Source of the DNA: a virus
Reading direction: 5' to 3' (one strand)
Virus record (IMG/VR): IMGVR_UViG_3300035665_000004
Coordinates: 57,947-121,946 of that record
DNA length: 64,000 bases
Shown in pieces: positions 1,593-63,999 of the stretch. Made by a program: the position numbers and the translations under genes. The first letter of the stretch is position 1. Every line of letters starts with the position of its first letter. Under the pieces are notes generated by a model. That model ran no database searches. It had not been told where the DNA came from and saw nothing but the letters and a program-made list of their open reading frames with translations.

Positions 1593-2492
1593 ATGAGAAA
1601 AAAATTACACAAACATACATCACATGATACCGAATTGATTCCTCAAAATATTTTTCCAAAACAAAAGAATGTCTACGTTGGTGAGGACCAAGATAGAAAT
1701 ATAGCGATTGTACTAATATATGGTGTTATTGATGAACCCGATGAGTATGTTGATGAACTATTAAAATTAAACTGTTTATCATCAAAATATGATGTTGTTG
1801 AAGTCACGTTAAATTCACCTGGTGGTAGTTTAAATACAACTGTTGATATGCTTTCAACAATTAATAAATTTGAGGTTGTTATTACTATTGGTAAAGGTGA
1901 GGTTGCATCTGCGGCATTTATGTTATGGGCAAGTGGTGATATTAGAGTAGTTACAGATTATTCAATGTACATGGCTCATAGAGAATCGTATGGTATGTAT
2001 GGAAAAACATCCGAACATAGAGATGCTGCTCAAACATTTGGTAAAGTGTATGAGGAGCTATTTGAGGAATGTTTTGGTGATTTATTAAATGATAAGGAAA
2101 AACTTATTGCTGAAAGATCTGAAACTTGGCTATCTTATAAAGATCTATTAGAAAGAGATAGAGTTATTAGTTATGATAAATATGTTGTTCCTACAAATCT
2201 TTATTCTGTTGTTGAATTGTTTGTTACCGATTCTGGTTCAATATTTATGAAGGACCCTGATTCGGATTCATTCAGAAGTGTAACTCTACAATATGGTGAC
2301 GAAGCTCTCGAAAATATGACCAACTATCTTTATGGTATTGCACCAATAACTAAAATGCCAACTGAGGTACCTACAACAAAACCTAAAGCGAATATATCTT
2401 CAAGATTGAAAAACAAAAATGTAAAATCTACCGATGATACGACATCGACAAACAAAAAACCAAAAAATAAAACTGGAGAAAACAATGAGTGA
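1593..2492 (+). CDS. clpP: ClpP-like serine peptidase (family S14)
   Basis: This 299-residue protein has a ClpP fold signature at residues 35-200: strand and oxyanion motif NSPGGS (74-79), nucleophile Ser106 in EVASAAFMLWASG, and His129 in MYMAHRES. The Ser-His spacing is close to that of bacterial ClpP. The usual third-residue region (ERDxxRDxFM in ClpP) reads ERSETWLS here, so the acid may be Glu177 or a nearby Asp; this is uncertain. Residues 215-299 form a basic, low-complexity extension absent from host ClpP. The stop overlaps the start of folE. Phage proteins of this fold can be head-maturation proteases, but ClpA and ClpS are also encoded near the right end of the window, so a role as the chamber of a phage Clp protease is plausible. 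Confidence 0.8.
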   Translation: MRKKLHKHTSHDTELIPQNIFPKQKNVYVGEDQDRNIAIVLIYGVIDEPDEYVDELLKLNCLSSKYDVVEVTLNSPGGSLNTTVDMLSTINKFEVVITIGKGEVASAAFMLWASGDIRVVTDYSMYMAHRESYGMYGKTSEHRDAAQTFGKVYEELFEECFGDLLNDKEKLIAERSETWLSYKDLLERDRVISYDKYVVPTNLYSVVELFVTDSGSIFMKDPDSDSFRSVTLQYGDEALENMTNYLYGIAPITKMPTEVPTTKPKANISSRLKNKNVKSTDDTTSTNKKPKNKTGENNE

Positions 2493-6969: not shown

Positions 6970-9483
6970 ATGCTAAAAAATCCAAATCCAAATCAAGAAG
7001 TGATTGATTTTTATAATTTACTCAAAACCAATCCAGACAAACAGTGGTATGAATACGAGGAATACAAATTTGTATTAATTGCAGAAAAACCTAGTCAAAT
7101 AAAAAGTTTAAGAGCCGTACTTCCTAAAGGGAAACATATCAAAATAATTTCTTTAGCAGGGCATATCATGAGATTAAAAAATTTTGAAGAGTACGATTTA
7201 TCTTTAAAAGATAAATCCTGGTACAAAATGGTAAAAGATGATAATCTACCATTCATACCCAATGAATTTGAATCAGTAGTAAAAGAAAAATCCACAGGTA
7301 AATTCAGAACAGATTACAATGAAATGTTTTTATCGTTGAAGCGTTCGACAAAAGAAGCAGATTTCATTATTTCGGTAGCAGATCCAGATAATGAAGGGTG
7401 TTCATTGATGTATCAACCAGTTGATTATGCTGGTAATAGTCAAAAAATTCTTGGTCAAATCAATATGTCGAAGTTAGATTTTTTCTCATTACAGGAAGAA
7501 ATTAAAACATTTGATACAATCGATTATTTTAGTATGGCACAAGCAGGTATTGCGAGAAGTGAGTTTGATTGGACTTTTGGATTAAACAATACCATATTAG
7601 CATCCGTTCTATTAGGTGGCGGTCAAACATATCATATCGGAGGTGTTAAATCACCAGTATTGAGAATGGTCTATGATAGAATCAAAAGTATTGAATCATT
7701 CAAACCTGAAAAATATTGTCAGTTTTTAGGTGAAGCAAAACATACAAAAACTGGAGTAGATTTTAAATACATTGTTAAAGTTAAACAAAATGATACCGAA
7801 ATTATCAACACTCAGGATAAAATTGATATATTGGAAATGAAGATAAATGGTATGGACAAAGAAAACCCAGAAATATTGGGTGAAATAGGTAATTTATATG
7901 TGGAATTGGGAAAATTGCGATGGAAACTCAACGAATTAATTAAAGATTATGAATCCTCGGAACGAGACATTTACAATAGAACTATACGTACCAAAATAGA
8001 AAATGTAATCAAAGATGGTATGAAATTTAAAATATCAAATTTTGAGACTAAAAAAGGGTTAACTCAAAATCCACCTTTGGCATACTCATTAACCGATTTA
8101 CAGGCTGAGGCTGGTAACAGTCATAATTTTACACCAGCCAAAACATTAGAAATCGCACAGAAACTTTATGAAGGTCAATGGCAGTCTTATCCTCGAACGG
8201 ATAACAGATATTATGCAACTGGTGAGATGGCAAATATAAAGAAAATAATTCCAAATTTATTGGGATTAACAACTTTTTCTAATGTTAAAATACCTGTACC
8301 TTATAAGGTTAATACGGGAGTATTCAACTCAGCAAAAATTTCTGCTCATACAGGGTTATCACCAACAACCAAGGAAATAAAAGATTCATCATTAACTGGC
8401 GAAATGAAAACTATATATGATATGGTTTCAACAAGGTATCTAATTCAATTTATGGACAAATTTGAATACTACCAGGTAAAGTTGGATGTTGATGTTGATG
8501 TTGACATTTATATCACTACACATCAAAATATAGAAGTTAAAAAAGGATGGCGAGAATTATATAATCCTGCAAATATGTATGGTTTCAATTATGTACAAAA
8601 ACAAACATTACCAAATATGTTAATTGGTGATGAAATTGAAATACTATCTATCACTCGTGAAGATTTACAAACAAAACCATCACCAATGTTTAACGATTTT
8701 TCATTGTTGAAAGGTATGGAAAATATTGGTCGAATTTATTCAGAATTGGAGGGATTAGAAAAAGGCATTGGTACACCGGCCACAAGAGCCAGTATCTTGG
8801 ATCAGTTATTTAAGGCAAAATATTTAATTAAGAAAGGAAAAATTGTTGATTTGAGTCCAAAAGCTAAAATGCTCATTAAATTATTACCAGATGAAATGAC
8901 ATCACCAAAATTAAGAGCTGATATGGAAGCAAAGTTAAATGATATTATTTCCAATAAAATAACCAAATTAGATTATGAAACTGAATTTAAAGAATTGATT
9001 TCTGACCAAACTAAATCTTTATATGAAATTTCAAAAAATAACAAAATAGAAGTCATTGATAAAGCAACATTACCACCTTCAGATGCCCAAATAAAATTTG
9101 CAAATCAAATCGCAAAAGAATTAAAATTATCCATACCTAAAGAGGCTTTAAAATTAAAAGACGAGATGATGCAGTGGTTGAAAAAAAATGAAAAAAATAT
9201 GCCTCAACTTTTAAGTGAAAAACAGTATTTATTCCTTAAAGAATATGGTAGTGACGATGAAAAAATTGTTTCGATCTTAGAGGCTCAAGATAATAGAACA
9301 ATGACAAAAGAACAAAAGTTTGAAGCAAGTAAATGGTTAGGTTCGTTCATCAGAACTAGCAAATATCAAAAATTACGTGCCGCAAAAGGAGCAGCTACTA
9401 AAAAAAGAAATAGAGAGGAAAAAATGAAATCTTTAGGTGTTGTTGTACCTGATGTAAAGTTGAAATCTTTAAAAAAGAAATAG
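6970..9483 (+). CDS. topB: Type IA DNA topoisomerase, plasmid topoisomerase III type
   Basis: 837 residues. The N-terminal Toprim domain has the catalytic Glu in VLIAEKPSQI (residues 36-45) and the metal-binding acidic triad in ADPDNEG. The transesterification Tyr is residue 407 in QSYPRTDNRYY. Later core motifs include KGIGTPATRASILDQL and LSPKAKMLIKLLP. Residues about 270-345 are a charged helical insertion. After the core, a C-terminal domain starting PPSDAQIKFANQIAKELKL resembles the tail of plasmid and conjugative-element TopB/TraE proteins rather than host TopB zinc fingers. It removes negative supercoils or decatenates daughter molecules, and its position behind rep suggests a single acquired replication cassette. 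Confidence 0.88.
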   Translation: MLKNPNPNQEVIDFYNLLKTNPDKQWYEYEEYKFVLIAEKPSQIKSLRAVLPKGKHIKIISLAGHIMRLKNFEEYDLSLKDKSWYKMVKDDNLPFIPNEFESVVKEKSTGKFRTDYNEMFLSLKRSTKEADFIISVADPDNEGCSLMYQPVDYAGNSQKILGQINMSKLDFFSLQEEIKTFDTIDYFSMAQAGIARSEFDWTFGLNNTILASVLLGGGQTYHIGGVKSPVLRMVYDRIKSIESFKPEKYCQFLGEAKHTKTGVDFKYIVKVKQNDTEIINTQDKIDILEMKINGMDKENPEILGEIGNLYVELGKLRWKLNELIKDYESSERDIYNRTIRTKIENVIKDGMKFKISNFETKKGLTQNPPLAYSLTDLQAEAGNSHNFTPAKTLEIAQKLYEGQWQSYPRTDNRYYATGEMANIKKIIPNLLGLTTFSNVKIPVPYKVNTGVFNSAKISAHTGLSPTTKEIKDSSLTGEMKTIYDMVSTRYLIQFMDKFEYYQVKLDVDVDVDIYITTHQNIEVKKGWRELYNPANMYGFNYVQKQTLPNMLIGDEIEILSITREDLQTKPSPMFNDFSLLKGMENIGRIYSELEGLEKGIGTPATRASILDQLFKAKYLIKKGKIVDLSPKAKMLIKLLPDEMTSPKLRADMEAKLNDIISNKITKLDYETEFKELISDQTKSLYEISKNNKIEVIDKATLPPSDAQIKFANQIAKELKLSIPKEALKLKDEMMQWLKKNEKNMPQLLSEKQYLFLKEYGSDDEKIVSILEAQDNRTMTKEQKFEASKWLGSFIRTSKYQKLRAAKGAATKKRNREEKMKSLGVVVPDVKLKSLKKK

Positions 9484-12923: not shown

Positions 12924-12953
12924 ATAATATATTCTTATTAATTGGTAAAAAAT

Positions 12954-14099
12954 ATGTTGAAAAAAGTTAAAGTTAAATCGGTTAAAAAAATTGATTATTC
13001 TGGTAAAGTATATGATGTAGTTATGAAAAGTAACCCACATACATTTTTTGCAAATAATATTTTGGTACATAATTCCTGTTATTTCAGAGTAATGGAGGCA
13101 GAAAACTTAGAACAGGCAGAAAAAATAAGTAGAGAGGTAGTTGACGCCTGTGATAAAAAATCTATCCCATCAATAGTTACCAATATTTTTAATGGTAATG
13201 ACATTATGCGTAGTGATTTTGAAGCAATTTCTCGATCAACACTGTCGTATGGTAAGAAAAAACAATACGCATTTCTTAAAGCCTGGGAGGATGGAGAAAC
13301 CTTACCAACTCCAAAATTAAGCATCACTGGTTTATCAATTAAAAGAAGTGATTCACCAAAACAGTTATCTACTGAAATGAAACCATTCTTTACCGAAATT
13401 ATGAAAGGTTTAACAAAAGAACAGATAAAAATCGCAATGGATAAAATTGAAAAAGATTATGATGCTCTACCAACATATGAATTGGCAGCTAAACGTTCAG
13501 CGAATAACTTATCAAAATATTTAAGGGCATTTAACTATGAATTAGTTAAAAAGGATAGACCATACAACATCGAAAAATTAGATGAGGCAGTTGAAAACGC
13601 TTGTGATGGGCGAGTATCCATCGATGATAAAATTTATGATGATTTCATGAGAACAGGCAAAGGTGTTTATTCCATCGAAAATAATAAATTGGTTAAAGAT
13701 ATAAAAGGTGATTTAATCATAGAGGCAAAAGTTAAAATGGTTATTCCATTTCATATCAAAGCATCGATACTTTATAATTATTTGTTAGAATTATACGATT
13801 TAAATGATTTCAATCCAATTTTAGATGGTGAAAAAATAAAATTATTTTATATTCAACCACAAAAATTTAATATAAAATACACGGATCTAGATGGAAACAA
13901 ATATGATATGATACAAACTTTTGATTGTATTGCGTTCCCATCAAACTCAAAAAAAATACCAAATTTTATCAATACATTTACACCAGACAAAAAAAGAATG
14001 TTGGATACTTATTTCTTTGGTAAAATGGAAACAATTTTTGATGTTATCGATTTTAATAAAGAAAAATTAGAAAATATATCAATGGATTTATTGTTTTGA
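12954..14099 (+). CDS. 43: C-terminal part of family B DNA polymerase fused to a C-intein
   Basis: Residues 1-40 are a split-intein C-fragment: VYDVVM (block F), then FFANNILVHN ending in the catalytic Asn40. The next residue, Ser41, is the first extein residue, encoded at 13074-13076. From there the sequence is the C-terminal quarter of a T4 gp43-like polymerase: SCYFRVMEAEN follows what must be the DTD of catalytic motif C, then SYGKKKQYAFLKAW, PKLSITGLSIKRSDSPKQ (palm/thumb), ending SMDLLF like the T4 tail FDMFDF that binds the clamp. The catalytic aspartates and the N-intein must come from another gene outside this window. The ATG at 12954 is preferred to an in-frame TTG at 12942. Confidence 0.88.
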   Translation: MLKKVKVKSVKKIDYSGKVYDVVMKSNPHTFFANNILVHNSCYFRVMEAENLEQAEKISREVVDACDKKSIPSIVTNIFNGNDIMRSDFEAISRSTLSYGKKKQYAFLKAWEDGETLPTPKLSITGLSIKRSDSPKQLSTEMKPFFTEIMKGLTKEQIKIAMDKIEKDYDALPTYELAAKRSANNLSKYLRAFNYELVKKDRPYNIEKLDEAVENACDGRVSIDDKIYDDFMRTGKGVYSIENNKLVKDIKGDLIIEAKVKMVIPFHIKASILYNYLLELYDLNDFNPILDGEKIKLFYIQPQKFNIKYTDLDGNKYDMIQTFDCIAFPSNSKKIPNFINTFTPDKKRMLDTYFFGKMETIFDVIDFNKEKLENISMDLLF

Positions 14100-14208: not shown

Positions 14209-16701
14209 ATGCCCACTAATATAAAAATTGATACCCTGACTATTGATATTTTGAATCATCTCAATATAATTGTGACCGACGCTAATAATAATATAACCTT
14301 TATTAGTGACAACTATTTAAATGCGTTGGAATATACTATCGATGAGGTTATTGGAAAAAATCCTATAATTTTTAGACATCCAACAATTAATAATCTACCA
14401 ATATTAAATTTTGTAAATAAAAATGGTGGACATTGGAACGGATTATTAAAAAATATTACAAAAAGTGGAAAAACTATATATTTCAATGCCGATATTTACA
14501 AAGATTATGATGAAAATGGTAATCATATTGGGTATCATTCAATACATACTGACATAACTACAACTATAACAAACCCCCATAAATTTATTTTTGATAATGA
14601 ACTTTTATCAATTATATTTTCAGAAAATATAGAATACCTAATCATCTGTTTGAGTGACGAGTTCGATGAAAATAAACACGAAATTATCAAGATTAGTCAC
14701 CCATTACTAGAATTGATAGGTATTGAAGCCGATAAATTAGTTGAGCAACACGCAAGTTTTGTAGATTTAATATCACCAAAGTCAATTTATTACAAAAATT
14801 TAAAACTGTTAATGCATGATCTTAACAATGAAAACCCATTACCGGTTGATATAAAAACGAAAAATAGGGATGCAAAATACAGAGTTTCATACACCCCTTT
14901 CAAATTCAATGATAAAGCAGCTCAATTATTTACGATGATTGACATAACCACCGAAATATCTTTTTCCGATCAACTCCAAAGTATAATAAAATCAAAAAAT
15001 GAATTTTTGGCAAATTTAGCCCACGAAATTAAAACTCCATTGAATGCAATTAATGGTTTTATTTCACTACTACAAATGCGTGAAACAAATAAAGAAAAAC
15101 TAGACTATATTGAATTAGTGTTGGAAAGTGTTAAACATGTAATAAACATTTCCAACGATACCATCGATTTTATTGGTATGGATAATAGTAAAATAGAGAT
15201 AAATCCTAGAGAATTTACACCAAAAGATATTCAGTCAACCATAGAAATATTTTTTGCAAAGAGTTTAGAAAAAAACATTGAATTGACTGCATATATTTCA
15301 CCACAATTACCAGAAATAATGTTTCAAGATATTTTGCGATTAAAACAAATCATAACCAATCTTATCAGTAATGCATTAAAATTCGTTAATGTTGATGGTA
15401 GAGGAACTATAGTGATAGAATGTCATTTCAACAATGACAAATTTTATTTTACTATTGTCGATAATGGAATTGGAATGTCCACAGAACAAATAGAAAATAT
15501 ATTTAATCCTTTTTATCAGGCATCAAAAGATACAAAAATGGTTTATGGTGGTACAGGGTTAGGATTGGCTGTTGTTAATCAAATAATTGAACTTATGGGT
15601 GGTAGTATTACTGTAGAAAGTGAACTCGGTGTAGGTTCAACATTTTCAGTTATTATACCAGTAAAATCAGTTAAAGAGTTTCAACATACAATTGGTCGAA
15701 TGGATATACCAAACATTTACATTTATGCCCCATCATTTTCCAATACAAAACATGAAATTTTAAAGAAATATCTGTTCGATTTTACAACCGCAAAGATCAA
15801 TAAAGTTGCAGAAATTGATACATTGAATTCAATAACGGATAGTGTGATACTACTTTATGTATGTGATACAGATATAAAAACTATACTCCAATTAAGTAAA
15901 ACAAATAGAATTATTGTAGTTAAAAAAATGGACATGGTTATCAACAATTTTACAAATTCGTCCGAAATAATAGAAATAAATTTACCCATTTTAGGATCAA
16001 AAATATATGATGCACTAAATTTACTAATATCCGGTAGAATGGAACAATTCTATAAAAATAACTTCTTAGATATGACAATATCTGGTAGAATATTGGTGGC
16101 AGATGATCAAGAATCGAATAGACTACTAATAAATCGATTATTATCATGTTATGATGTAACGATTGATGTAGTATGTGATGGTAGAGAGGCAGTTAATTAT
16201 TTTAAAAAGAGTATAATAGAAAACAAATCGTATTACGACTTAATATTGCTTGACGTCAACATGCCAATATTAAACGGCGTTGATGCCGCGAGAGAAATAA
16301 GACTTTTCGAAAAAATGAATAATATTACTAGAACTACAATAATATCATTAACAGCGGATAGATATACGGACAAAAATGATAGTAGATTGGTAGATATGGA
16401 TGAATATATACCCAAACCTATTAATTTAAAACGGATGTTATATCTAATTGTGAAATACACAACTGATCTAAAATTGGTTGATGAAAACTTGTTATACGAT
16501 GAAAAAATTAAAAAATTGAAAGAGATACGTGACGAATTTTTAAAACCAAATAATGAATTTAAAACAATGATAGACAATTATAAAAAACATTTTGATGGTT
16601 CGGAATTACCAATTATTGAAGGTTTAAAAGATTTAACTAATAAAAATGAATTCACTGCAAACTATAATAAAATTATGAAAATTTTTAGGAAGCACGGATG
16701 A
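14209..16701 (+). CDS. Soluble PAS hybrid histidine kinase with C-terminal receiver
   Basis: 830 residues and no membrane segment. Residues 10-125 form a PAS domain (TDANNNITFISDNYLNALEYT...EVIGKNP); residues 125-255 are a second, weaker PAS-like region. HisKA: His272 in FLANLAHEIKTPLNAINGF. HATPase: N box LKQIITNLISNALKF, G1 VDNGIGM, F box FNPFYQAS, G2 GGTGLGLAVV, all intact. Residues 495-620 are a degenerate receiver-like linker. The true receiver (625-760) has RILVADDQ, phospho-acceptor Asp682 in LILLDVNMP, the Thr/Ser site ISLTADR and Lys in YIPKPI. The about 80-residue helical tail lacks an HPt histidine motif. It should autophosphorylate and pass phosphate to its own receiver, then to a separate HPt such as that at 19457. 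Such a kinase is exceptional in a phage. Confidence 0.92.
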   Translation: MPTNIKIDTLTIDILNHLNIIVTDANNNITFISDNYLNALEYTIDEVIGKNPIIFRHPTINNLPILNFVNKNGGHWNGLLKNITKSGKTIYFNADIYKDYDENGNHIGYHSIHTDITTTITNPHKFIFDNELLSIIFSENIEYLIICLSDEFDENKHEIIKISHPLLELIGIEADKLVEQHASFVDLISPKSIYYKNLKLLMHDLNNENPLPVDIKTKNRDAKYRVSYTPFKFNDKAAQLFTMIDITTEISFSDQLQSIIKSKNEFLANLAHEIKTPLNAINGFISLLQMRETNKEKLDYIELVLESVKHVINISNDTIDFIGMDNSKIEINPREFTPKDIQSTIEIFFAKSLEKNIELTAYISPQLPEIMFQDILRLKQIITNLISNALKFVNVDGRGTIVIECHFNNDKFYFTIVDNGIGMSTEQIENIFNPFYQASKDTKMVYGGTGLGLAVVNQIIELMGGSITVESELGVGSTFSVIIPVKSVKEFQHTIGRMDIPNIYIYAPSFSNTKHEILKKYLFDFTTAKINKVAEIDTLNSITDSVILLYVCDTDIKTILQLSKTNRIIVVKKMDMVINNFTNSSEIIEINLPILGSKIYDALNLLISGRMEQFYKNNFLDMTISGRILVADDQESNRLLINRLLSCYDVTIDVVCDGREAVNYFKKSIIENKSYYDLILLDVNMPILNGVDAAREIRLFEKMNNITRTTIISLTADRYTDKNDSRLVDMDEYIPKPINLKRMLYLIVKYTTDLKLVDENLLYDEKIKKLKEIRDEFLKPNNEFKTMIDNYKKHFDGSELPIIEGLKDLTNKNEFTANYNKIMKIFRKHG

Positions 16702-17545: not shown

Positions 17546-18163
17546 ATGCTTAGTAATTTATTTGGTAAAAAAATTCGTAAAGTGGATTATCACAACACTA
17601 ATAAATCTGAAACACACAACTTCACAAATATGCAGGATCAAATCACATGGTTGACAGATAATGGTTGGGTAAATGGAAATACTTTCAATAAAAGTAACAA
17701 AAATATCCTGATAATGGATGACAGACAAGATATAATTTCCGCAGTCATTGATGATTTAGAAAGAATGGACGAAACTGAAATAATAAATCTAAATCATTTT
17801 AACCTGATAACTGTTTCATCAAAAAATGCAGGTTTTCACGTATTGGATATTTTAGAAAAAGCACCAAATATAACCATAGATTATGCACTATTAGATATTG
17901 TATTAGGTGGAAAAAAAATAGTAGATGGTGTAAAACAAATGGTAGATGGTGTTGATGTTGCAATACAAATATGGGAACGGTTTTCAACAGCACAGATACT
18001 TTTTTTTAGTGGTTGTATCATTGAAAATTCTAACGACCGTGATGATTTTAAAAACAGATTTACTAGTTATACACAAGAAGATATATCGGATTATTTGTTG
18101 CCAAAGGACATTGATTTTGATTCCGAAATCGATCAACTAGCAACATTTTTCAACGGTTTTTAA
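17546..18163 (+). CDS. Stand-alone receiver (response regulator without output domain)
   Basis: 205 residues. After an N-terminal extension of about 52 residues comes a receiver fold: NILIMDDRQDI (Asp58-Asp59), phospho-acceptor Asp117 in YALLDIVLGG, the Ser switch in ILFFSGC, and Lys in YLLPKDIDF. All catalytic positions are present. After Asp117 a short duplication (KIVDGVK / QMVDGVD) lengthens the beta3-alpha3 loop, where normal receivers have DxxMPxMDG. There is no DNA-binding or enzymatic output domain, so the output must be by protein contact. The ribosome site is strong (AAGGGAG) and the membrane kinase follows by 8 nt. Confidence 0.85.
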   Translation: MLSNLFGKKIRKVDYHNTNKSETHNFTNMQDQITWLTDNGWVNGNTFNKSNKNILIMDDRQDIISAVIDDLERMDETEIINLNHFNLITVSSKNAGFHVLDILEKAPNITIDYALLDIVLGGKKIVDGVKQMVDGVDVAIQIWERFSTAQILFFSGCIIENSNDRDDFKNRFTSYTQEDISDYLLPKDIDFDSEIDQLATFFNGF

Positions 18164-18171
18164 AATTATTT

Positions 18172-19455
18172 ATGGCTATCGATTTTAAAAATATAGCTAT
18201 TAGTAGTTTAACAATAACTGGGGTAACATTTGCGTCTGTGCTTTGCATAACAATTACTGTAAATTTATATACCACATTTACAATATCAAATGAATTCGAA
18301 CCATCAATAAATTTATTAGCTAGAAATTATATCAATTCAAAAAACTCACCAACATTATTGACGGATAATTTTACCGATTCTCAAATAAATGTAGTTATAT
18401 TTGATGAAGAAAAAAACAAAATATTTAAACTTAATAATAATTCTTTAATTGACATTAGTGATTCATCACCATTTCCAAAATTAATTAGTGTACCATTTGA
18501 TGTTTATATTTCTTCTATGACAACGTTTGAAATGTCCACACTTGCAACTATGTATAATGTAGACAATTTAAAAATAAAACTAGATATATATGATAAGAAG
18601 CATATAGCCGCCGATACATTTATAATGTTACTAATAACTAACAGTCTTATTTCTCATATTTTATATTTTAAATTAGTTGCTAGAAATAAACTGATATTGA
18701 AATCACTGATTAAAGTTGAACAATACGAATACGCTCTTTCACAAAGAACAACAGCAGATTTGGTAAGTATAACACATCATAAATTGAATACGCCCCTAAA
18801 GGTTTTAAATACAAAATCCAGAATGTTGATTGATATAATAAAATCACAGGATAACATTTCACAAAAAACATTAGATAAGGCTTTGTTGGATTATCATAGT
18901 ATTGAATCTTCATTAACCACAATTTCTGAGGTTACTGATACATTAAAATCATTTAATGATTTGAGTAAACATGAATTGAATTTATATAAATTGTTTAACG
19001 TTGCGAAAGAAACTACCAATGTATTGAATGATGATGAATTTGAAATTATATTAGATGAAAAAACTAAATTGTTCAATATTGATAAATCATATATAAATTC
19101 ACATGAAATGATTCAAATTTTTATAAATCAAATAAATTTTTCATTGTCAATGTTAGCAGATAAAATTCATATAAAAGTATTTAATACCTCAAATAATGTT
19201 ATGATATTATTATATTCTGATAATGGGAATATAATTACCGATGATATGATCGATGATCTAAATACCAATAATGAAATATTTGTAAATGCAGATACCAACC
19301 ATAAAAAAAATACACATTATGATTTAACTTTAAACTTTATTATTTTAAATTCGAAAGATTTTTCAAATATAAAAATTCTCTCATCTAATAGAAATGGAAA
19401 CATATTTGAGATTAAACTACCTGTTGTTCGAGCAGATGAAACAAAAAAATTTTAA
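18172..19455 (+). CDS. Membrane histidine kinase-like sensor with degenerate ATPase domain
   Basis: 427 residues. TM1 is at 8-32, followed by a periplasmic domain of about 115 residues and TM2 at 148-170, the usual sensor-kinase topology. The dimerisation/phosphotransfer helix has His203 in SITHHKLNTPLKVLN, keeping the H..L.TPL core. In the catalytic domain the N box (MIQIFINQINFSLSML) lacks the usual N-L-x-x-N-A pattern, G1 is reduced to LYSDNGN, and G2 is not recognisable. It may therefore be a phosphatase or phospho-acceptor rather than an active kinase, or depend on the hybrid kinase. It starts 8 nt after the receiver with almost no ribosome site, implying coupled translation, and ends 1 nt before the convergent HPt gene. 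Confidence 0.78.
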   Translation: MAIDFKNIAISSLTITGVTFASVLCITITVNLYTTFTISNEFEPSINLLARNYINSKNSPTLLTDNFTDSQINVVIFDEEKNKIFKLNNNSLIDISDSSPFPKLISVPFDVYISSMTTFEMSTLATMYNVDNLKIKLDIYDKKHIAADTFIMLLITNSLISHILYFKLVARNKLILKSLIKVEQYEYALSQRTTADLVSITHHKLNTPLKVLNTKSRMLIDIIKSQDNISQKTLDKALLDYHSIESSLTTISEVTDTLKSFNDLSKHELNLYKLFNVAKETTNVLNDDEFEIILDEKTKLFNIDKSYINSHEMIQIFINQINFSLSMLADKIHIKVFNTSNNVMILLYSDNGNIITDDMIDDLNTNNEIFVNADTNHKKNTHYDLTLNFIILNSKDFSNIKILSSNRNGNIFEIKLPVVRADETKKF

Positions 19456-55923: not shown

Positions 55924-57561
55924 TTAGAAATGTAAGTGTTTTTTTCTTAGTAATTTATGAATTTCAGGTTTGAGATTATTAGTTTCAACAATCTCTATTT
56001 GTTGATTTTCAACATTAAAGATGGGATGTTTATGATTTTCGGAAAATGATAAACCACTACCATCTACAGAAATAACCCACTCTTCTTTCTCAATGGTATC
56101 GTTAACAATCACAGATTTTAACTCACCCGTATGTGTTAGAACTCGTTCACCAATAATCACATCACTAATTTTTTTATTTCCAAATTCAGTATGGATAAGA
56201 GTATCTGACTTTACACAATCCCCTTCAGAAAAAGCAATACTACAAATTGACCTATCTTTAGAATAACAATCAATTAACTTATGAAGTTTTCCTCGTTTCC
56301 CTTTCTGATTTTTTTTCACCTTAGCCATATCAGAAATACGTTGTCTAAATTCGGCTCTTGATAAAACTTCGTCAACCCAATCTTTGTTTTGAGAAATAAA
56401 TTTACCAATATTATCTATCACCATTTTGTCAATATGTTTTTTGATCTCTGGGGAAATCAAACGTGTTTTTGATTGATTGTCATATCGAGGATTTTTCATT
56501 TTTACATCGGCAATAACCAACATATTATGTCTAACATCATGTTTATTAAGTTCAATCTTTCTTTTCTTACATTCAGATTTAAGTTTTTCAGTTACAGATG
56601 AAAAGAAAGTATTGAAAAACATAAATGCTGCTGTCCCACCTTCAAATAACAAAGAGGAATTAACATAAACAAATACTTTTTCATCAATACCCTGATACTT
56701 ATCCAAAATTAAATAATATTTTGCTGTGAATTCTGGATCAACATATTTAAATTCAAAAAATCTATCAGAAACATTTTTGATGTATTCACCCATACCACCT
56801 TTGAAACAAAAATCTTCCTCAATATGTTCTTCCTCACCATCTGCATCCAACTGTTTTCGAGAATAACTCATTTCAATTTCTGGATTATTAAGAGCAATTT
56901 CAAAAACTCGATTTTCGATTAATTCTGGATCAATTTCAGTAGTAGCAAATTGAGTTAAAGTAGTATCAAATTTAAATTCAGTACCAGTACCAGTATCTTT
57001 ACCTTTATAAATGTTTATTGATGGGGGATCAATTGAATTTGTACCATCCCTATACATCTGTTCATAAAACTTACCATCTCGTTTAATCGAAACTTGAAAT
57101 TCTTCGGATAACATAGCAACAACCGAACTACCAACACCATTAGTTCCAATAACACCACTATCTTTTGAGGAATCATCGAAATTTCTTCCAGAACGCAATT
57201 CTGTGAATACTGTTTCGGGAGTATATCTTCCTGTTTGTGGATGTACGTCAATAGGTACACCACGACCATTATCAACAACTTTAAATCTATTATCGACAAC
57301 ATTATGAAACACCGATATTTTCTTATCTTTCTTTTTTAATTGTGTTAATTCATCAATAGAATTGTCAACAATTTCATTAAATGATTTATATAATGCTGGA
57401 ATAAAATCTTTTTGTTTTATAAAAATATCATTTTTTTCAAAAATTGGCATTTCATAAGATGTCATTTCGGTTGAACCAACATATATTTGTGATCTCAAAC
57501 GACAATGATCTCTATCGGATAATACCTGAATATCGCTTGATGAATAACTCTTATCGGTCAT
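55924..57561 (-). CDS. 39: Topoisomerase II ATPase subunit (gp39-like) ending in an N-intein
   Basis: 545 residues. GHKL ATPase motifs: NEIVDNSIDE, VVDNGRGVPID, GTNGVGSSVVAML; the transducer domain follows to residue about 400. The protein reaches the Toprim motif ICSIAFSEGD, and then the frame becomes an intein N-fragment of 97 residues: Cys1 at 56215-56217 (CVKSDTLI, block A), VIIGERVLTH, and block B SENHKHPIF, ending LRKKHLHF. The insertion point EGD|S is the conserved Toprim loop of GyrB-type enzymes. The rest of the Toprim domain with the matching C-intein must be encoded elsewhere. A Vsr-like homing endonuclease abuts the break. Confidence 0.9.
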   Translation of the reverse strand: MTDKSYSSSDIQVLSDRDHCRLRSQIYVGSTEMTSYEMPIFEKNDIFIKQKDFIPALYKSFNEIVDNSIDELTQLKKKDKKISVFHNVVDNRFKVVDNGRGVPIDVHPQTGRYTPETVFTELRSGRNFDDSSKDSGVIGTNGVGSSVVAMLSEEFQVSIKRDGKFYEQMYRDGTNSIDPPSINIYKGKDTGTGTEFKFDTTLTQFATTEIDPELIENRVFEIALNNPEIEMSYSRKQLDADGEEEHIEEDFCFKGGMGEYIKNVSDRFFEFKYVDPEFTAKYYLILDKYQGIDEKVFVYVNSSLLFEGGTAAFMFFNTFFSSVTEKLKSECKKRKIELNKHDVRHNMLVIADVKMKNPRYDNQSKTRLISPEIKKHIDKMVIDNIGKFISQNKDWVDEVLSRAEFRQRISDMAKVKKNQKGKRGKLHKLIDCYSKDRSICSIAFSEGDCVKSDTLIHTEFGNKKISDVIIGERVLTHTGELKSVIVNDTIEKEEWVISVDGSGLSFSENHKHPIFNVENQQIEIVETNNLKPEIHKLLRKKHLHF

Positions 57562-60083: not shown

Positions 60084-62393
60084 TTAAACATTTTCATTAA
60101 TTTGTTCTTTCTTTGATTTGACATCTAATTTCTTTGCATCTAAATCCTCTTGAGATGTATATTTGAGAGAAATTTCACCATCTTTTGAAACATCAACCTT
60201 AACTCTACCACCTTTAGACAATATACCCAACACAATTTCCTTAGCTATAGGTTTTTTAACAAGGTCTTGTATAACTCGCTTCATAGGTCTAGCACCTAAT
60301 TCTTTATCAAACCCTCTTTCAGCCATAAGTTCTTTTGCAGCTTTAGTAACTGTAAGTTGAACATTTTTGGTTTTAAGTTGATCTCGCACCTCATTAAGAA
60401 TTTTTTCAGCAACTTTAAAAATTTGTTCGTTTCCAAGCACATTGAAACTAATAATACCATCCAATCGATTTCTGAATTCTGGTGAAAATATTTTTTCAAT
60501 TTCTACTTTTGATTTTGATTTTGCCGCATCCTCATTACCAAAACCAACAGTTTTACCAATCTTTGTTCCGGCATTAGTAGTGAAAATAATAAACACATTT
60601 CGGAAATCAGCTTTCGTTCCATCGGATGATGTTAATTCTGCTTCTTCTAAGATTTGAAGAAACGTATTTTGAATTTTAGAATGGGATTTCTCAAATTCAT
60701 CGAGCAACAAAATACAATGTGGATGTTTTTTAATATCGTTGATTAATCGACCACCTTCTTCATAACCAACATAACCTTGTGATGAACCAGTTAACTTAGA
60801 TACACTGGCTTCTTCCATATACTCACTACAATCGATACGCATTAATTTAAGATTTCCGAGTTGTAGTGAAAGTTGTCTTGCCAATTCAGTTTTACCCGTA
60901 CCTGAATTACCCGCTAACAAAAAAGCACCCAACGGTTTATTAGGTTCATTTAAACCTGCTCTCCCCATCATAATCTTATCTACAATTTCATCTACAGCGT
61001 GATCTTGCCCATACAATTTTGTTTTGATATTTTCTGATAAATTTGCCAATCCTAATTTATCATCACCTTCTTCAATTACTACTGGAACTCTAGCTTTTTT
61101 AGAAATTAAATCGGTAATATCCTTTTCTTTAATCGCAATTCTATTATCTGTATTATTTTTAAGTTTGATAATTGAACCAACCTCATCAACAATATCAATT
61201 GCTTTATCTGGGAAATGAAGATCAACTAAATGTTTTCCACTTAAAGACACAATCTGTTTTAAAATTTTATCAGTATATGAAACATTATGGTATTCTTCAA
61301 ATGTTTGCTTCAAACCTTTAAGAATTGCAAACGTAGTTTCTTCATCGGGTTCAGTAATATCAATTTTTTGAAATCTTCGCAACATTGGTTTATTTTTATC
61401 AACCGTACTTTTTGCCTCTTCATACGTAGTTGCACCTGCAATTCTAATTTTACCATTCAACATAGCAGGTTTTAAAATATTTGTTGCATCTAACTGATTA
61501 GAACTATTTGCACCTAAACCGAACATAGTGTGAAATTCATCAATAAATGCTATACAATTTTCTTTGCTTTCCAACTCTTTGAGAATATCTTGTAAACGTT
61601 TTTCAAAATCACCACGAAATTTAGCACCAGCAATCATCGCAGTTACATCAATAGAAAATACTTGCCACCCTGAAATTTGTTTTGGTACAGAACCACCAAC
61701 AATATCAAGGGCTAATTTTTCAGCACACGCAGACTTACCCACTCCAGCCTCACCAACTAACAAAGGATTATTCTTCTTTTTTCGACATAAAATTTGTATC
61801 ATTCGTTCAGTTTCTTCATCTCGTCCAATAACAGGATCTAATTTACCATCACGGGCTAATTCTGTTAAATTTGTGGAGTATAACTCTAACGCTGATTTTT
61901 TCTTTGTTTTTCTACCATTACCAGTATTTTCAGATTGTGGTGGGTATTCTTCATCAACGTGTTCTGGTTCACGAATTTCAGTAATATACTCTTTTAATAC
62001 ATAGGCATCAACACCATATTTACTCATTAAAAATACAGCCATTGTATCTTGTTCGGTAAACATTGCTATCAACAAATCTTCAACCTTTGAGATTTTACCA
62101 GATGATTGAGTATGGAATATGAGATGTTGTAAAATCTTTTTAAACATAATTGTTTGTTTTGGGTGTTTAGCATTTTCAATTTTCTCGATCTCATTAGTCA
62201 AAAATAAATCTACTTCACTGCGTAATTTTTTCCAATCAACATCCAAATCAATCATCAGATTTTGTACCTCTTTCGTACCCAACGAAACAAATAGAATATT
62301 TTCCAATAACAAATATTCCTGTTGTCTCTCAGAAGCATCAACCCATGCTTTGTTGATAATATCTTCTACTTCGGCACTTAATAATTTAATCAT
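60084..62393 (-). CDS. clpA: ClpA AAA+ unfoldase
   Basis: 769 residues, the normal ClpA length. The Clp_N domain is diverged (residues 1-150). D1 has GEAGVGKSACAEKLAL (Walker A) and CIAFIDEFHTMFG (Walker B); D2 has AGNSGTGKTELARQLS and ILLLDEFEKSH, with sensor FTTNAGTK. Both arginine-finger regions are recognisable. At the place of the ClpP-docking loop (IGL/IGF in hosts) the sequence KIGKTVGFGNED offers VGF, so docking to a ClpP ring looks preserved. It unfolds substrates and feeds them to ClpP. ClpS lies just upstream on the same strand and a ClpP-like gene is at the left end, so a phage-specific ClpAPS is plausible. Confidence 0.93.
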   Translation of the reverse strand: MIKLLSAEVEDIINKAWVDASERQQEYLLLENILFVSLGTKEVQNLMIDLDVDWKKLRSEVDLFLTNEIEKIENAKHPKQTIMFKKILQHLIFHTQSSGKISKVEDLLIAMFTEQDTMAVFLMSKYGVDAYVLKEYITEIREPEHVDEEYPPQSENTGNGRKTKKKSALELYSTNLTELARDGKLDPVIGRDEETERMIQILCRKKKNNPLLVGEAGVGKSACAEKLALDIVGGSVPKQISGWQVFSIDVTAMIAGAKFRGDFEKRLQDILKELESKENCIAFIDEFHTMFGLGANSSNQLDATNILKPAMLNGKIRIAGATTYEEAKSTVDKNKPMLRRFQKIDITEPDEETTFAILKGLKQTFEEYHNVSYTDKILKQIVSLSGKHLVDLHFPDKAIDIVDEVGSIIKLKNNTDNRIAIKEKDITDLISKKARVPVVIEEGDDKLGLANLSENIKTKLYGQDHAVDEIVDKIMMGRAGLNEPNKPLGAFLLAGNSGTGKTELARQLSLQLGNLKLMRIDCSEYMEEASVSKLTGSSQGYVGYEEGGRLINDIKKHPHCILLLDEFEKSHSKIQNTFLQILEEAELTSSDGTKADFRNVFIIFTTNAGTKIGKTVGFGNEDAAKSKSKVEIEKIFSPEFRNRLDGIISFNVLGNEQIFKVAEKILNEVRDQLKTKNVQLTVTKAAKELMAERGFDKELGARPMKRVIQDLVKKPIAKEIVLGILSKGGRVKVDVSKDGEISLKYTSQEDLDAKKLDVKSKKEQINENV

Positions 62394-62593
62394 CTCTTTA
62401 TTCCTTGTTTCAAAATTATAATTTTACACAATAGTTTTAAAGTTCACTGAATAGAATCATAGAAATTTAAATAACTGGGGTGTTAACCAAAACAAACCAC
62501 ATCTTTAATTAAAATATAACTATCGCAAACACAACAAAAACATATCCTACAAATATGATACTAAATTTTTTTATATTTTAAAAAACGAATGTG

Positions 62594-62621
62594 AAAAAAG
62601 GAATCAAATGATTCCTTTTTT
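62594..62621. terminator. Terminator between clpS and clpA
   Basis: A 12-bp stem AAAAAAGGAATC (62594-62605) against GATTCCTTTTTT (62610-62621) with a 4-nt loop, directly after the clpS stop. The long gap to clpA (236 bp) has no other gene. Confidence 0.85.
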
Positions 62622-62629
62622 TCATATTT

Positions 62630-62926
62630 TCAAATTTTCTTCATGATAGTTCTTAGTGGTTGTTTATTTGCTTTTGCGAATTCCGATGCAGCGTAAACTT
62701 TTGATTCGGCTATTTCCTTGGTATAGATACCACATAAACCCTCTCCACCAGAATGTACACTAGCAGTAATATCATTTGCTTCTAATTCTGATTTATTAAA
62801 AATCGTAATCAATGTCATTACTACAAATTGCCAGGTACTATAATCATCATTCAATATAAAAACCGCATATTTACTCGGTCTTTTAATCTTAGTTTTTTCT
62901 TCTACTTCAGGCAATGAAACACTCAA
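62630..62926 (-). CDS. clpS: ClpS adaptor
   Basis: 98 residues with the full ClpS signature: YAVFILNDDYSTWQFVVMTL, then VHSGGEGLCGIYTKEIAESKV and the C-terminal helix. ClpS delivers proteins with N-degron residues to ClpA. Asn-Asp-Asp and the His of VHSGG, which contact the N-terminal residue, are retained. Translation starts at TTG behind GAGGAG, since there is no in-frame ATG upstream. With clpA and clpP in the same window this would give a complete N-degron pathway under phage control. Confidence 0.93.
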   Translation of the reverse strand: MSVSLPEVEEKTKIKRPSKYAVFILNDDYSTWQFVVMTLITIFNKSELEANDITASVHSGGEGLCGIYTKEIAESKVYAASEFAKANKQPLRTIMKKI

Positions 62927-62997: not shown

Positions 62998-63999
62998 TTA
63001 TTTTTGGTTTATGCCACCATAATAGGATATATTACTTTTTTCACCTAATAATTTGACATAATTCACATAATCTATGTATTCACATCCGATTAACGCAAAT
63101 TGCTTCTTACCATTTTTATAAATTTGTTCCAATTGTGTTGCGTTTGATCCACCAGAAATATCACTGTCAGAAAATAAAATAATGTTAAAGTTTTTTTCAA
63201 ACAGAGTTTTAAGGGTAACGGTAACTAATGATGACAATTCAGTTGCACCATCAAAGCGTTTAGTGAATAAAATATCAGTAGATTCCGTACATTTTACTTC
63301 CGATTTACCAGTTGCAATAAAATCATGTATATCATCAACAATACCATATTTTTTCTTCTGTACATCTACTTTATAAATGTGTACATCATTTGCGTATTTC
63401 AAAACATACATTGTACCATTTAACTTTGAAGCATTCACTTTTAACAGTTGCATAATATCATTTTGCATCTTACCTAAATACTCACCCATCGAACCAGATG
63501 TATCCAATACAAAGCATAAGCTAATTTTATCACTTTTATTATCACGCATACCAGGTTTTACAACACCGACACCAGTTTGAGCAATAGAAACCATCGATGA
63601 TGTGGTTCTTCTCGATGGTTTGGAATAAGATTCATCTTTTACTACCCCACTTGGAATCATCTTTTTAATGAGTGTTTTCCAATCTAGTGATGGTTTATAC
63701 TTCTTATTATCTAATCCATAAGACTGTCCATCGGCTGAATTTTTACCAGAACCAGTATTTTCACCACTCATCATTTTTGATAGATCACCTGGAGATGGTA
63801 AATTTTTATTTACATCACCAACAGTTGAACCAGAAGCATCATTTTGCCCATCACTCAAAATAGAATTATTTTTCTTTCTGACATTATCCATATCATTAAT
63901 TTCAGCGGCTTTTTCTTCTCTTGCTCGTCTTTCATTATCGGCAATACCATCAAGGGCTTCAGCTTCTTTTCTTTTCTGTTCATCGGGATCAGTTCCTTG
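62998..63999 (-). CDS. VWA-domain (CobT/DUF2201-like) protein, 5' end outside window
   Basis: The frame stays open to the window edge (333 codons seen), so the ATG at 63891 need not be the start; the part before it is charged and repetitive (EQKRKEAEALDGIADNERRAREEK). Middle: KPSLDWKTLIKKMIP. The von Willebrand factor A domain follows with the MIDAS motif VLDTSGSMG, later Thr and Asp sites in FDGATELSSLV and ILFSDSDISGGS. The layout matches the metallopeptidase-like VWA proteins (DUF2201 C-terminus) that are often paired with a MoxR-type AAA+ ATPase. Its partner should lie to the right of the window. Role in phage unknown. Confidence 0.75.
   Translation of the reverse strand, partial: QGTDPDEQKRKEAEALDGIADNERRAREEKAAEINDMDNVRKKNNSILSDGQNDASGSTVGDVNKNLPSPGDLSKMMSGENTGSGKNSADGQSYGLDNKKYKPSLDWKTLIKKMIPSGVVKDESYSKPSRRTTSSMVSIAQTGVGVVKPGMRDNKSDKISLCFVLDTSGSMGEYLGKMQNDIMQLLKVNASKLNGTMYVLKYANDVHIYKVDVQKKKYGIVDDIHDFIATGKSEVKCTESTDILFTKRFDGATELSSLVTVTLKTLFEKNFNIILFSDSDISGGSNATQLEQIYKNGKKQFALIGCEYIDYVNYVKLLGEKSNISYYGGINQK

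Follow-up and report, generated by a model that had tools for sequence, protein, structure and literature searches.

The clpS–clpA locus analysed here raises the question of whether this virus owns a complete ClpA–ClpS–ClpP protease, and which peptidase its unfoldase and adaptor would serve. We analysed a window of 64,000 nucleotides that comprises bases 57,947–121,946 of the virus record IMGVR_UViG_3300035665_000004 (G000, 121,946 bases in total); coordinates are those of the window unless a record is named. An earlier reading based on the sequence alone (the sequence-only reading) had proposed that adaptor, unfoldase and a ClpP-like peptidase are all present, and this was confirmed: ClpA reaches 819.7 bits to TIGR02639, ClpS 84.4 bits to PF02617 (cut-off 23) and a protein with the ClpP fold 42–43 bits to PF00574 (cut-off 20). 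The span 60084–62926, which had been said to hold the whole set, contains only ClpA and ClpS, and the gene of the ClpP-like protein lies on the opposite strand at a distance of 58 kb. We consider it fairly probable that ClpS and ClpA feed a canonical ClpP and that the ClpP-like protein works apart from them, as a peptidase that neither docks to ClpA nor serves as prohead protease. Such a reading separates the true ClpP partner from a ClpP-like decoy that goes under the same annotation name, and it adds a further group of jumbo phages to those with an N-degron unfoldase of their own.

For comparison, we used two sister records, G001 (IMGVR_UViG_3300026521_000003, 289,880 bases) and G002 (3300026484_000295, 172,404 bases). 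The neighbourhood of clpA and clpS and the neighbourhood of the ClpP-like gene are syntenic between G000 and G001. The capsid protein gp23 and the T4-type S77 protease are present in both sisters and were not found in G000; likewise, the 11 successive ORFs around the ClpP of G001 (59.2–69.8 kb, ClpP included) had no matches in G000. Lacking the head genes as well as the surroundings of ClpP, G000 is, judged by its gene content, a fragment. Scans of viral records for the rest of the window virus recovered only sisters, one of them a 306-kb record with a 77% match to the sister ClpP.

The clpA gene (60084–62393, minus strand) encodes a two-ring AAA+ unfoldase of 769 amino acids with an N-domain and the rings D1 and D2. 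The protein aligns end to end with ClpA of Escherichia coli (E=5e-192, 643 bits), and in this alignment the Walker A and B motifs of both rings and the arginine fingers are intact. The pore loops KFRGD and GYVG are kept. The VGF docking tripeptide that had been noticed before was borne out as well: it occupies residues 616–618, aligns with the IGL/IGF loop and fits the pattern (I/L/V)G(F/L). The N-domain, which serves ClpS, shows similarity to E. coli ClpA starting at residue 2, with the SSG(K/R) stretch retained. TIGR02639 is the best of all NCBIfam models for this protein; since its equivalog cut-off of 993 was missed and the Pfam model Clp_N (PF02861) had no match anywhere in the G000 record, the window ClpA is a divergent member of its family.

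ClpA as such is common in phages. At least 591 stretches in IMG/VR match the ClpA profile, possibly with relatives of the ClpB/ClpC type among them, 80% of the window ClpA is covered by matches in 55 phage records with annotation, and a full-length ClpA family exists in PHROGs (phrog_4871). Furthermore, ClpA has been described as a core gene of aquatic 'moraphages' (PMC12619734). When viral contigs were scanned with the window ClpA as a single sequence, no matches were obtained and profile scans were needed. In the ClpA tree, the phage proteins fall outside the bacterial sample on long branches, and we therefore draw no conclusion on the host. The top ClpA match, 'Acinetobacter phage MD-2021a' (CAKLQF02/CAKLQH02), was rejected: these are bacterial contigs with argC, tig and clpX aboard, and they were left out of the phage counts. 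As they are filed as phage, these records mislead searches for ClpA, ClpS and ClpP.

Phage ClpA might act mainly as an unfolding chaperone, in virion assembly or disaggregation, without any proteolysis. Roles in assembly have been suggested (Attai et al. 2018, PMC6102473; Iyer et al. 2021, PMC7824862), and ClpA was found without ClpS in 17 of 22 virus records, many of which are fragments. However, the protein retains its docking tripeptide, and this phage group co-encodes ClpS as well as canonical ClpP, which makes a purely chaperone role unlikely.

The clpS gene (62630–62926, minus strand) encodes an N-degron adaptor of 98 amino acids, whose TTG start is supported by a preceding GAGGAG ribosome site. 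The conserved core is preceded by an N-terminal extension of about 16 residues, and the NCBIfam equivalog cut-offs are not reached. Glu79 and Lys84, which face ClpA in the E. coli complex, are kept. It had been claimed that ClpS retains the residues of its N-degron pocket, and this holds in part: Asn34, Asp35 and His66, which bind the alpha-amino group, are all kept, but both methionines of the pocket are replaced, the gate Met40 by Trp and the wall Met62 by Thr (E. coli numbering), in the window and the sister alike. Met at gate and wall is typical of ClpS but not universal, and gates with Arg, Gln or Tyr exist. In Caulobacter, Met53 and Met75 are the pocket residues, and the Met40 gate of E. 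coli excludes beta-branched residues (PMC12493166).

We compared both positions to bacterial proteins. Position 62 is Met in all 73 bacterial ClpS nearest to the window protein, and the gate in the same proteins is Met (69) or Gln (4). A further sample of 50 bacterial ClpS, taken from genomes across one bacterial phylum, has Met (48) or Thr (2) at position 62 and Met (46) or Arg (4) at the gate. Thr at the Met62 position was observed in seven of ten phage-type ClpS compared to 2 of the 123 sampled bacterial ClpS. The Fisher value obtained in this comparison with bacteria (1e-5) overstates the case because the phage sequences are related to each other. For at least four of the Thr-bearing proteins, independent evidence marks the source record as phage, as G001, G010 and G014 carry a T4-type gp23 and SCTP-2 is an isolated phage; G007, G016 and G017 are called phage by the IMG/VR classing. 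To our knowledge, which here covers open-access papers, this change of the phage ClpS pocket has so far not been described. It provides a testable difference and opens the question of whether phages retune the N-degron rule of their host. That the reshaped ClpS selects other N-terminal residues than the host ClpS and feeds these to a phage ClpAP is a tentative proposal, which we deem possible but doubtful. A search of the records for a Leu/Phe-tRNA-protein transferase, an enzyme that would create N-degrons, gave no hit. Nor did any evidence on substrates turn up for the two roles suggested by the sequence-only reading, the degradation of cleaved host proteins and the processing of virion proteins.

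Within the window, clpS is located upstream of clpA on the minus strand, with 236 bases between the genes. A hairpin with a T-run in this gap, directly behind clpS (62593–62622, minus strand), is a possible terminator; as RNA, it folds better than shuffled sequences (z = -4.1), and a terminator consensus scan of both strands yielded one hit, which equals chance. Due to the gap and the possible terminator, joint expression of clpS and clpA is not assured in the window. In G001, the two genes are adjacent (14 bases apart), and their products are 68% (ClpS) and 77% (ClpA) identical to the window proteins. Upstream of clpS, the window encodes a VWA-type protein (62998–63891, minus strand), which corresponds to the C-terminal part of a DUF2201/VWA protein. 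A VWA-type neighbour also precedes clpS in the sister, where an AAA+ ATPase comes before the VWA gene. This might be a module of four genes in the order AAA–VWA–ClpS–ClpA (L004:45-4849).

The ClpP-like protein of the window, here termed class B, has 299 amino acids and is encoded at 1593–2492 on the plus strand. The top PDB matches of its AlphaFold model in Foldseek are all ClpP. The core is modelled confidently (about residues 27–190), the mean pLDDT of 65.8 stems from disordered ends, and residues 243–299 are modelled as disordered. Ser106 and His129 of the catalytic triad are kept, and Glu177 takes the place of the Asp (E. coli D171), such that the protein has Ser-His-Glu in place of Ser-His-Asp. 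The third catalytic region, which the sequence-only reading had called unusual, is in addition one residue shorter. Glu177 is conserved in all three members of the genus, and Glu can act as triad acid in other serine hydrolases. The tail of 85 residues that had been called basic carries a net charge of only +2; it is basic over its last 50 residues (net +6). As a separate observation, the C-termini of divergent phage ClpP-like proteins are rich in Lys and Arg (window 1593–2492, L005:4989-5816, L003:381-1076, L027 and L028), and such an end is absent from canonical phage ClpPs.

In the alignment, the N-terminal ClpP motif GERSxDIxSRLL is absent from the ClpP-like protein. The docking cleft for the unfoldase is lost as well, with the substitutions Y62->T, F82->K, M92->K, F112->V and L114->T (E. 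coli mature numbering; cleft positions taken from activator-bound ClpP, PMC6853987). Hydrophobic residues occupy 5 of 10 cleft positions (3 are polar or charged) compared to 10 of 10 in the canonical ClpP of the sister and 7–10 of 10 in other phage canonical ClpPs. The best-matching family is phrog_1827, with the ClpP of KVP40 and the Clp protease of XacN1 as distant kin. These proteins share the lost cleft and the Lys/Arg-rich C-terminus with the window protein; they differ in the third catalytic position, which is mostly Asp in the family proteins compared and Glu in the window genus. Both sisters carry the ClpP-like gene with the same neighbours (60–61% identity).

The sequence-only reading took this protein for the peptidase of a ClpAPS machine owned by the phage. 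In favour of this, it has the ClpP fold, Ser and His are kept, and the Glu is a possible triad acid. Besides the lost cleft and the missing N-terminal motif, however, its distribution argues against it: its family is common in phages that have no ClpA, and the protein is matched in 349 of the phage records listed, 167 of them from Vibrio, compared to ClpA in only 7 Vibrio records. The two genes are therefore largely uncoupled. Among 22 further ClpA-bearing virus records, 10 encode a PF00574 protein, all with 100–270 bits, and none has a match in the low score range of the window protein (~43 bits). Furthermore, the sisters encode a separate canonical ClpP. Of the proposed phage ClpAPS set, we retain the delivery of N-degrons by ClpS and ClpA, which is well supported at the sequence level by the ATPase motifs, the pore and docking loops, Glu79 and Lys84, and find it very unlikely that the ClpP-like protein is the peptidase. 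It could nevertheless dock through another surface or assemble into mixed rings.

Could the ClpP-like protein instead be a head maturation protease? This had been named as the case that would speak against its role as ClpA partner, and matches to 'head maturation protease' profiles exist (phrog_1684, phrog_94 and NF045542); they are weak, the last reaching 45.7 bits with a cut-off of 120, and the best score is obtained for phrog_1827, whose category is not head. The gene adjoins a GTP cyclohydrolase and a Cas4-like exonuclease, and in G001 the head cluster has its own T4-type S77 prohead protease together with gp23 and a scaffold-like gene between them. A role in head maturation therefore seems highly improbable.

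A second ClpP-like gene is encoded outside the window (G000:40381-41076, plus strand; 231 amino acids, phrog_26628). Its product is nearest to a 'ClpP' of Campylobacter phage (38–39%) and has equally few hydrophobic cleft residues; no counterpart was seen in the sister records.

Which ClpP does the phage ClpA serve? G001 and G002 encode a canonical ClpP of 211 amino acids (E=4.5e-63), which is located at ~61 kb in G001. E. coli D171 corresponds to the second Asp of the DTERD motif, and by that count the Ser-His-Asp triad of the sister ClpP is intact. No ClpX above the cut-off was found in either sister. No canonical ClpP is present within the 121,946 bases of G000, and this absence is consistent with a virus that has no ClpP of its own, where phage ClpA and ClpS act on host ClpP and redirect the host barrel. 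The VGF loop is of the general IGF/IGL type, the docking clefts of bacterial ClpP are conserved, and recruitment of host ClpAP by phage ClpS has been proposed (Iyer et al. 2021, PMC7824862). However, G000 is a fragment in which the whole ClpP neighbourhood is missing, and both sister records encode canonical ClpP. As G000 also misses gp23 and the S77 protease, the most plausible reason for the absent ClpP is that the sequence is incomplete, and we regard a virus that depends on host ClpP as rather unlikely.

Under the reading that we favour, phage ClpS would bind a protein with a destabilising N-terminus and contact the N-domain of ClpA, which would then thread the protein into ClpP. These steps follow the known ClpAPS cycle (PMC9663308), and for the window phage we infer them from the conserved motifs. 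ClpA would dock on a canonical ClpP barrel, which is phage-encoded in the sister and, by analogy, presumably also in the window virus, for which host ClpP is possible as well. The ClpP-like protein would be a separate, divergent Ser-His-Glu peptidase of the ClpP fold that does not dock to ClpA, is no prohead protease and probably acts without an AAA+ partner. The sequences show the motifs of ClpA and ClpS, the lost docking features of the ClpP-like protein and, in the sister, a separate ClpP and the S77 prohead protease; complex formation, activity and a role in infection are inferred.

Full Clp sets are already known in jumbo phages. Agrobacterium phage Atu_ph07 encodes seven Clp proteins, with ClpX, ClpA, ClpB, ClpS and two ClpP-type proteins among them (Attai et al. 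2018, PMC6102473). It resembles the case studied here in its ClpA, its ClpS and the combination of a ClpP with a further, ClpP-like protein; it differs by its ClpX and ClpB, and its ClpA is only ~34% identical to the window ClpA. Pseudomonas phage PA5oct encodes ClpX, ClpS, ClpP and ClpA. The PA5oct/MIJ3 group shares ClpA, ClpS and a canonical ClpP (for which ESI-MS/MS is noted in the record), whereas its genes are scattered, it has ClpX and FtsH, and its ClpS has Met at both pocket positions. Six Clp ORFs have been reported for phage AP-J-162 (PMC11242549), and ClpP, ClpS and ClpA of jumbo phages have been discussed by Iyer et al. 2021 (PMC7824862). Compared to the E. coli system, the domain order, the docking loop and the N-degron-binding core agree; the differences are the exchanges of Met40 and Met62 in ClpS and the ClpP-like protein, which has no ClpP orthology.

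Lastly, we observed further genes in the record. A DNA polymerase-like gene is apparently split by a split intein into two parts that are ~27 kb apart (G000:42937-43752, plus strand, L003:2937-3752; and window 12942–14099, plus strand). After a DTDS motif, the upstream ORF ends with the N-terminal region of an intein (TIGR01445, 42 bits, above cut-off), and the window ORF opens with the C-terminal part of an intein that ends in ...VHNS. A GyrB-like topoisomerase subunit (55924–57561, minus strand) runs into a stretch that resembles an intein N-terminus (CVKSDTLIHTEFG..., Hint_2 E=0.03), where its ORF terminates early. The window also encodes a hybrid sensor kinase with PAS, HisKA, HATPase and receiver domains (14209–16701, plus strand), which is unusual for a phage; it is followed by ORFs that resemble a receiver-type protein and a membrane kinase (17546–18163 and 18172–19455, plus strand), both with zero Pfam matches. 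A large type IA topoisomerase is encoded at 6970–9483 on the plus strand (PF01131, 262 bits).
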